Source: a virus | Strand: one strand, 5' to 3' | Virus record (IMG/VR): IMGVR_UViG_3300025806_000178 | Location: 1 to 26,671 of that record | Length of the DNA stretch: 26,671 bases | Shown here: piece after piece, positions 1,930 through 5,626 of the stretch | How positions within the stretch are numbered: the first letter of the stretch is position 1 | How the letters are laid out: every line of letters begins with the position of its first letter | The notes under the pieces: generated by a model | Told to the model about the DNA's origin: nothing | What the model saw: the letters and a program-made list of their open reading frames with translations, nothing else | Database searches by the model: none | Position numbers and translations under genes: made by a program

Positions 1930-1941
1930 CAACAATGTCAT

Positions 1942-1970
1942 GGGCAGTAGCACATCCCCCTTTACTGCCC
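1942..1970 (+). promoter_or_regulatory. perfect 8-bp dyad abutting a -35 box
   Basis: GGGCAGTA (1942-1949) and TACTGCCC (1963-1970) are perfect inverted arms, extendable by one G-U pair, around a C-rich loop. The right arm ends at the base before TTGACA (1971-1976). In RNA it is a stable hairpin that could end transcription of the upstream operon, although no T-run follows. In DNA it is well placed as an operator for the helix-turn-helix protein encoded just downstream. Confidence 0.5.
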
Positions 1971-2002
1971 TTGACATCTTACTTTATGTTGCTCCATATA
2001 TG
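1971..2002 (+). promoter_or_regulatory. putative promoter for regulator gene, leaderless
   Basis: TTGACA is a perfect -35. The -10 is weak: CATATA (1995-2000) at 18-bp spacing or TATATG (1997-2002) at 20 bp. With either, transcription would begin at about 2006-2010, at the ATG at 2007, which has no SD upstream. This predicts a leaderless mRNA, as known for lambda cI from PRM. The promoter lies inside the longer reading frame from ATG 1935. Confidence 0.4.
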
Positions 2003-2006
2003 CAGT

Positions 2007-2291
2007 ATGAAAGCATACTTAGATACTGTCAAAGATCAAGCAAAACTAAAGGGTGTAGATTTGTTTACAGCCTTCAAGTATGCAGGTCTTCCGACATCTA
2101 CATACTACCGAACGATCAATGGGCAAACTGAAATGCGGTTTAGTACCGCGTGTTCTGTTTTAGATGCGATAGATGAGCAACACAGAAAAGACGAAGCCGC
2201 CAAGCGTACCAAACAACTACGAGACTCTGGTCAGGTTGTTAATAGACGCTCGGCACGAAAGGGCATTAAGCCAAGAAAGCTTAGCGCGTAA
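2007..2291 (+). CDS. helix-turn-helix regulator, Cro/C1-like
   Basis: A 94-residue DNA-binding protein. Residues 1-55 fit a lambda-repressor-type fold, with a recognition region around GLPTSTYYRTINGQ (about 26-39) and a later packing helix (STACSVLDAI). The remaining 38 residues are strongly basic and may add DNA contacts or be constrained by the gene they overlap. I chose ATG 2007 because the fold begins there and the putative promoter at 1971 would start transcription there. ATG 1935 has an excellent SD (GGAGGAA, 8 bases away) and would add 24 residues unlike protein, encoded by the dyad and promoter. Both starts may be used. The last 119 bases overlap the next gene in another frame. Confidence 0.72.
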   Translation: MKAYLDTVKDQAKLKGVDLFTAFKYAGLPTSTYYRTINGQTEMRFSTACSVLDAIDEQHRKDEAAKRTKQLRDSGQVVNRRSARKGIKPRKLSA

Positions 2292-2412
2292 GATTGGTTG
2301 CACTGAATCTTTGGTTCACAAGTGGGAGCAGTTCAAGCGGATGCCTTCTGGGTTTATGTTAATGTGTTGGTTAGAGGCATTAGAATATGACATCGAAGCA
2401 ATTAAGAGGTAA
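2173..2412 (+). CDS. XRE-family helix-turn-helix regulator
   Basis: A 79-residue protein with a clear XRE/Cro-type domain at about residues 16-75: first helix YETLVRLLIDARHERAL, then SQESLARKIGCTESLVHKWE with the recognition helix in the second half, then a closing leucine-rich helix. It is a probable transcriptional regulator of phage genes. ATG 2173 is needed to keep the first helix; the SD is poor, so translation may depend on the upstream regulator, which it overlaps by 119 bases in a different frame. TTG 2236 is a weaker alternative that would trim the first helix. It overlaps the next gene by 26 bases. Confidence 0.75.
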   Translation: MSNTEKTKPPSVPNNYETLVRLLIDARHERALSQESLARKIGCTESLVHKWEQFKRMPSGFMLMCWLEALEYDIEAIKR

Positions 2413-3052: not shown

Positions 3053-3261
3053 TGCCATTATTTAATGTTGGGTTTCATTATGCAGAAGGTATGTTTTTAA
3101 CTATAAATGCAAAAGATGAAGATGAAGCATCTTATTTGGCGAATCAAATCTTAGAAGAATACTCAGGCAGCATAGAAGAAATACATTCCATGAAACATGT
3201 TGAGAATTATAAATGTGTTCATAGAGAGTCTATGATTACAGATATTAAAGAGAGTAAATAA
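3052..3261 (+). CDS. hypothetical small protein
   Basis: 69 residues, not recognised. The beginning (PLFNVGFHYAEGMFLTINAKDEDEA) suggests a beta strand pair followed by a helix, a small alpha/beta fold. I chose ATG 3052 because GGGAGGT lies just upstream and the ATG overlaps the preceding stop; a TTG at 3037 would sit before that SD. The stop overlaps the next gene's ATG. It lies in the middle of the coupled replication/recombination operon. Confidence 0.72.
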   Translation: MPLFNVGFHYAEGMFLTINAKDEDEASYLANQILEEYSGSIEEIHSMKHVENYKCVHRESMITDIKESK

Positions 3262-3560
3262 TGGCTCAGTTTAAAAGACTATCAGGTAACGCTTCTTCTT
3301 GGGATGCACATGTTAAACGAGCAAGCACCTCGCCAAGTCTTGCTGCGGAATATCGCAAGTCCTCTTGGAGAATAGACACACACAGAATTATGGCTAACAG
3401 AATTAAGAATGGGGAGGGAGTGGGACACTACTGGCTCGAAGGTAAACTCAAGAAAGAGTTGCTTGAGATGACAACAATAACTGAAGATGACTTCAAGAAA
3501 TACCTTGACCCTACTGCACAAACGCAGTACACAAGACCTTACAATGATGGAGAAAATTAA
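3261..3560 (+). CDS. hypothetical phage protein
   Basis: 99 residues, basic and mostly polar, with no recognised family. Residues 20-60 are rich in Arg, Lys and Ser (AAEYRKSSWRIDTHRIMANRIKNGEG). It is joined to both neighbours by one-base TAATG overlaps and directly precedes the YqaJ-type exonuclease gene, so it may act with it; that is positional inference only. No membrane segment or Cys motif is present. Confidence 0.72.
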   Translation: MAQFKRLSGNASSWDAHVKRASTSPSLAAEYRKSSWRIDTHRIMANRIKNGEGVGHYWLEGKLKKELLEMTTITEDDFKKYLDPTAQTQYTRPYNDGEN

Positions 3561-5374: not shown

Positions 5375-5626
5375 ATGGAAACATATGCACAAATGAAAGT
5401 ACGCCATGAGCGAGAGGTAAAAGAACTAATACTAAAGTTCAGTAAAGATCATACAATTGCTCAAGCAGCAAAAAGAATTGGTATGGACAAGGACAAGCTC
5501 AGACGCTTTGCACATTACCACGGAGTATCATTTAAGAAAAAGTATGGGGATGATATAACAAAGTGTGATACAGTATACAGAAAGAAAACAGTTACACTTT
5601 CAGCAGCACCTTGGGAAATGCAATGA
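5375..5626 (+). CDS. small putative DNA-binding protein
   Basis: 83 residues, basic. Residues about 28-52 (TIAQAAKRIGMDKDKLRRFAHYHGVSF) fit a helix-turn-helix of the 'AA.iG.....l.r...hG..f' kind seen in small phage regulators and recombinase-type HTH domains. The rest is a basic tail. GAGG lies seven bases before ATG 5375. It is the first gene after the intrinsic terminator. The stop overlaps the ATG of the next gene (ATGA). The role is unknown. Confidence 0.7.
   Translation: METYAQMKVRHEREVKELILKFSKDHTIAQAAKRIGMDKDKLRRFAHYHGVSFKKKYGDDITKCDTVYRKKTVTLSAAPWEMQ

Follow-up and report, generated by a model that had tools for sequence, protein, structure and literature searches.

A candidate repressor-operator system and a conserved RNA hairpin at the start of a helix-turn-helix regulator gene in uncultured marine phages

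The DNA analyzed here, called the window, is the 26,671-nucleotide (nt) IMG/VR virus record IMGVR_UViG_3300025806_000178. On its plus strand, positions 2007 to 2291 encode a 94-residue putative regulator with a helix-turn-helix (HTH) domain, HTH1. The gene is overlapped by a second HTH gene, HTH2 (2173 to 2412, plus strand; HTH_3/HTH_31 in Pfam), which is located 3′ of HTH1 in every close relative and in each of the 25 divergent clusters. Upstream, at 1675 to 1929, is a gene for a small zinc-finger protein (CxxCxGxG, DnaJ-like) with a weak match to Q-like antitermination proteins (phrog_6060, E = 6e-4); a relative of this protein is also found upstream of HTH1 in several divergent clusters. 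The portal protein encoded in the window shares 64% identity with its counterpart in Pelagibacter phage EXVC031P Hodr, a cultured isolate with a 34-kb genome. Hodr has a YqaJ protein (33% identity), as well as relatives of HTH2 (33%) and of a RusA-like resolvase; HTH1 and the palindrome and hairpin described below are all absent from its genome.

No model in Pfam or NCBIfam matched HTH1 above the cut-off, its family has no name in the libraries searched, and its weak matches were to LacI/CcpA, HI1420, and PHROG regulators. An AlphaFold model with a mean pLDDT of 80.7, which replaced an earlier model made with 17 sequences (pLDDT of 74), predicts helices at residues 4 to 15, 19 to 26, 30 to 37, and 45 to 73. 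As modeled, HTH1 would have the four- to five-helix HTH domain of the lambda-repressor-like (XRE/Cro) fold. Its structural neighbors are mostly XRE/lambda-repressor-type HTH proteins (Z, 5 to 6), and it resembles C proteins, HipB, P22 c2, and Aca proteins. An earlier note on this DNA had the HTH encoded from position 2007 on, which agrees with the predicted structure.

The earlier note also pointed out two in-frame ATGs, at 1935 and 2007, which are indeed present, 72 nt apart. We compared the start codons in the window's clade, consisting of 28 sequences (the window and 27 relatives). ATG 2007 was invariant across all 28 and was also kept in seven relatives at 65 to 70% protein identity; every close relative read had this start. 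In contrast, ATG 1935 was in frame in 15 of the 28 sequences, the other 13 having lost the start or the frame to CTG, TTG, ATA, or single-base shifts. The residues of the 24-codon N-terminal extension (1935 to 2006, plus strand) vary from subgroup to subgroup, and the extension is not a conserved coding feature. Its absence in many relatives supports the short form and rules out a long product that is conserved; the extension appears to be an RNA stem, described below, read in one frame. The Shine-Dalgarno sequence that had been called excellent does exist, as AGGAGG at 1919 to 1924, 10 nt before ATG 1935, but it coincides with the final codons of the gene before it (GAG GAG GAA TAA, with the stop at 1929) and is therefore weak evidence for initiation at ATG 1935. 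ATG 2007, as reported, has no Shine-Dalgarno sequence.

A −35 box, TTGACA, is present at 1971 to 1976 on the plus strand and is invariant in the 27 close relatives. The first T of this box is 36 nt from ATG 2007 in all window-clade relatives, a fixed spacing that supports the claim of a promoter, here called P2, that ends at the second ATG. The candidate −10 box, CATATA at 1995 to 2000 (plus strand), is suggested by its position only; it has an 18-nt spacer, matches TATAAT at 3 of 6 positions, and would put the transcript start at about 2007. This weak −10 box is the main soft point of P2. A consensus promoter scan did not list P2, and the region had no excess of promoter-like sites (21 versus 18.7 ± 4.9 in shuffles). 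When viral contigs were scanned for the P2 DNA pattern, the matches were to the family and to unrelated sequences, mostly repeats of one similar sequence in other phages, and the literature on pelagiphage transcripts held no promoter data. A candidate promoter on the minus strand (TTGACA-17-CATACT, 2032 to 2004) was rejected because its −35 box is not kept in the relatives. Thirty bases separate the end of TTGACA from ATG 2007, which is consistent with a leaderless mRNA. Given the fixed −35 spacing, the conserved ATG, and the absence of a Shine-Dalgarno sequence, the HTH1 mRNA probably has its 5′ end on the A of ATG 2007 or on an adjacent base, and the autoregulated, leaderless short form proposed in the earlier note appears to be the best reading.

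One base before ATG 2007 is a second, 14-bp near-palindrome that the earlier note missed, CTCCATATATGCAG at 1992 to 2005 (plus strand). It overlaps the −10 region, is near-invariant in the clade, and is likely to be the operator; the conserved block CTCCATAYATGCAG matches the palindrome CTGCATACGTGCAG of an upstream promoter, P1. A profile search of viral contigs found 324 relatives of the regulator, 80 of which were kept; the relatives read and the window's clade, grouped at 80% identity, gave 27 clusters. In the ∼70 nt preceding the gene, the sequence CTGCA-N4-TGCAG, with ≤2 mismatches, occurred in 27 of 27 clusters versus ∼5% of control windows; these windows were drawn from the contigs themselves, and other genuine operators are among them. 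Thus, a palindrome at the gene's own predicted promoter, as in autoregulated repressors, was found in every cluster, and in 10 of the 27 it was perfect. Two layouts were seen. In the first, which is that of the window, TTGAC is followed by 15 to 16 nt, the operator, 1 to 2 nt, and the ATG; in the second, TTGAC is followed by 4 to 5 nt, the operator inside the spacer, 11 to 13 nt, and the ATG. The operator of the hairpin-bearing clade is imperfect, with a left half-site (1992 to 1995) of CTCC rather than CTGC; CTCC occurs only in that clade, the other clusters having mostly CTGC.

The palindrome also precedes HTH1, and directly precedes yqaJ, in contigs of a Novosphingobium metagenome-assembled genome (MAG) that encode a 47% identical homologue. 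The cultured-phage collection contained no homologue of HTH1, and neither did the plasmid collection when queried with a divergent homologue. Judged by sequence comparison, the palindrome and predicted promoter at the start of the regulator recur in many uncultured marine phages. One contig carrying the phage module, L083 (PBGS01000047.1), is labeled a Euryarchaeota MAG but is probably a phage contig binned into it.

The same palindrome is found at two other predicted promoters on the plus strand. P1, TTGACT-17-TACTAT at 855 to 883, has CTGCATACGTGCAG at 863 to 876 filling its 17-bp spacer. The palindrome was present in 31 of 31 relatives with enough upstream sequence, while its central bases and the promoter hexamers varied. 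Just before P1, at 783 to 835, lies a pair of GC-rich hairpins, with a T-run after the second, that is likely the terminator of the preceding gene. The probable promoter P3, TTGACC-17-TACACA at 3505 to 3533, lies inside the end of the gene at 3261 to 3560, and its operator, CTGCACAAACGCAG at 3514 to 3527 between the −35 and −10 boxes, ends 32 nt before the YqaJ recombinase gene. This operator was present in 30 of 30 relatives with sequence there. The codons of its half-sites had zero synonymous changes in the 30 relatives, whereas most neighboring codons do vary.

We consider it likely that HTH1 is a Cro-like autorepressor with a leaderless transcript that acts at three promoters, P1, P2, and P3. 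HTH1 would be transcribed from P2, the −10 and start region of which (∼1995 to 2007) overlaps the operator, and the protein, perhaps with HTH2, would bind the operator and repress its own promoter. By occupying the −35/−10 spacer of P1, it would repress the early gene block at 915 to 1929, and via the spacer operator of P3 it would probably repress the YqaJ/ERF recombination genes. The protein would thus most likely switch off its own promoter and two neighboring phage promoters, and this repression would limit early gene expression. With sites located in spacers, activation instead of repression is possible.

The region between the two ATGs contains a further element. The earlier note described a perfect 8-bp dyad at 1942 to 1970 and took it to be an operator. 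The arms, GGGCAGTA at 1942 to 1949 and TACTGCCC at 1963 to 1970, are present, but the true inverted repeat is larger, pairing 1935 to 1949 with 1963 to 1977 over 15 bp with one T-T mismatch (14 of 15 paired) and a 13-nt loop. Such a dyad (14 of 15, loop ≤30) is expected by chance 0.1 times per window of the same composition. ATG 1935 lies within the 5′ arm and the whole TTGACA within the 3′ arm. The RNA fold has a z score of −6.0; folding energies of the hairpin are −16 to −22 kcal/mol, with −21 kcal/mol for that in the window. It occurs once per genome examined.

Covariation was counted over a 13-bp stem in 27 aligned sequences, 24 of them distinct. The stem was formed in 92% of the cells (13 pairs, 27 sequences), and 7 of the 13 pairs had changes on both sides. 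Stem-keeping compensatory changes, the mark of a structured cis-acting RNA, were found in 43 cells versus 11.0 ± 2.8 in shuffles, and the signal vanished once the register was slid. The outer part of the 3′ arm, which holds the −35 box, varies less than the 5′ stretch with which it pairs, and some of the relatives at 65 to 70% identity have TTGCAA or TTGCAT as the −35 box with the matching change in the 5′ arm. The arms are thus free to vary provided that pairing is kept. An operator bound by a protein would not tolerate such changes, and the dyad was therefore ruled out in that role. Among the distinct sequences, there were 32 G-U cells on the plus strand versus 11 A-C cells, the latter corresponding to G-U in the opposite strand. 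Because of this excess, the structure is most likely used in the plus-strand RNA, that is, in the upstream transcript. Two further pairings were tried and not adopted. A loop-to-Shine-Dalgarno pseudoknot was rejected by eye, for the loops are pyrimidine-rich yet not consistently complementary to AGGAGG, and an outer stem (alignment columns 21 to 25 with 84 to 88), although 85% paired, ranked second among the more than 1,000 helices tried and is not claimed.

In the mechanism proposed above, the hairpin would act on the P1 transcript. The simplest role for it would be that of an insulator located immediately before P2, where it would slow or terminate transcription arriving from upstream or prevent that transcript from being translated into HTH1. 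A more specific possibility, which we regard as real but hold to be somewhat improbable, is that the P1 operon ends at the hairpin, which would be its intrinsic terminator and overlap the promoter that follows. Its stable stem (−21 kcal/mol), its place directly 3′ of the upstream stop codon, and its apparent action on plus-strand RNA would all fit a terminator, and in one distant relative, L167, the corresponding region contains a strong hairpin that is followed by a T-rich tail. However, an intrinsic terminator has a GC-rich stem and a U-run, and in the window the stem is followed by UUGACAUC, not a U-run. In addition, the hairpin was missing from the terminator program's list, and a model of it had no significant match upstream of HTH1 in clusters other than the window's.

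HTH2 always accompanies HTH1, and therefore joint action, or binding by HTH2 or a host protein, is possible. It seems unlikely to us that the protein binding the palindrome is not HTH1 alone but HTH2, a complex of HTH1 and HTH2, or a host regulator. HTH2 adjoins HTH1 in every cluster and is the clearer Pfam match, but the operator abuts HTH1, not HTH2, and HTH1 carries a conserved HTH of its own, including an invariant STYYR segment. Moreover, Hodr, which has a relative of HTH2 but no HTH1, has no palindrome, although this is a single genome.

Less likely still is that the hairpin, built into the −35 box, acts as a dedicated regulatory RNA and is recognized in the operon transcript, either by HTH1 or HTH2 or through pairing of GGAG (1920 to 1923) with the fixed CUCC (1992 to 1995), so that control of the regulator would depend on the same few bases in DNA as well as in RNA. 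The switch envisaged in the earlier note, with a long form translated from the operon mRNA at ATG 1935, a short leaderless form from 2007, and the 1942-to-1970 dyad as operator, is very improbable. The window does have the in-frame ATG and AGGAGG, and 15 of the 28 clade members retain the ATG, but the losses in the other 13, the covariation of the dyad arms in place of preserved half-sites, the pairing of ATG 1935 in the hairpin, and the origin of AGGAGG in the codons of the upstream gene all argue against it. Equally improbable is that HTH1 and HTH2 form a toxin-antitoxin pair in which HTH1 would be the antidote, autoregulated in the manner of such operons: the genes overlap in tandem and have weak matches to the HI1420/HigA antidote models (HTH1) and to YdaS (HTH2), but all these matches are below the curated cut-offs, no recognizable toxin is present, and operators at other phage promoters fit a phage regulator.

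That the phage has no visible integrase, as the earlier note stated, is true of the window and of its close long relatives, in which no tyrosine or serine recombinase was matched, with the caveat that these records may be fragments. It is not true of the whole regulator family, for a tyrosine integrase is present in 3 of 15 long contigs; these contigs all fall outside the window's clade and may be fragments as well. Thus, the regulator is not tied to one lifestyle. In two integrase-bearing contigs (L101 and L103; G315 and G316), a further perfect CTGCA-N4-TGCAG lies within ∼200 nt of the integrase domain match. The window itself encodes, at 5375 to 5626, a small HTH-like protein whose match to phrog_16129 is weak (E = 0.003) and excisionase-like. 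These observations add a candidate repressor-operator system, with the consensus CTGCA-N4-TGCAG and three predicted promoters, for a large group of metagenomic phages that had no previously recognized regulator, and they suggest that members without an integrase may keep a Cro-like control circuit.

The controller (C) proteins of restriction-modification systems autoregulate via palindromes at the promoters of their own genes. C.BclI and C.Esp1396I resemble HTH1 in fold and in having palindromes at their own promoters; unlike them, HTH1 has no adjoining restriction-modification genes and no detected sequence relation. The anti-CRISPR-associated (Aca) autorepressors (PMC9410906) are likewise small, phage-encoded HTH proteins of similar fold, but they belong to a different sequence family, and no anti-CRISPR gene was identified here. 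Another comparable system is the Cro/CI switch of the telomere phage PY54, with a small HTH lytic repressor, a palindromic operator at a promoter, and leaderless cI and cro mRNAs (PMC4488713). However, PY54 possesses cI and cro as a pair and has a prophage state, and its Cro is believed to leave its own synthesis unrepressed (PMC4488713), whereas HTH1 is codirectional with the early genes, and neither a CI partner nor an integrase was found here. The cI mRNA of lambda, expressed from PRM, is also leaderless, according to work cited in PMC3017554, and cI is controlled by operators at promoters, as proposed for HTH1. In contrast to lambda cI, HTH1 lacks a cleavable C-terminal domain and has single 14-bp operators instead of cooperative triplets. 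As leaderless mRNAs are established for phage repressors, the system is known in kind; its unusual part is the hairpin overlying the −35 box, and the sharing of bases between the two is a clear and conserved puzzle.
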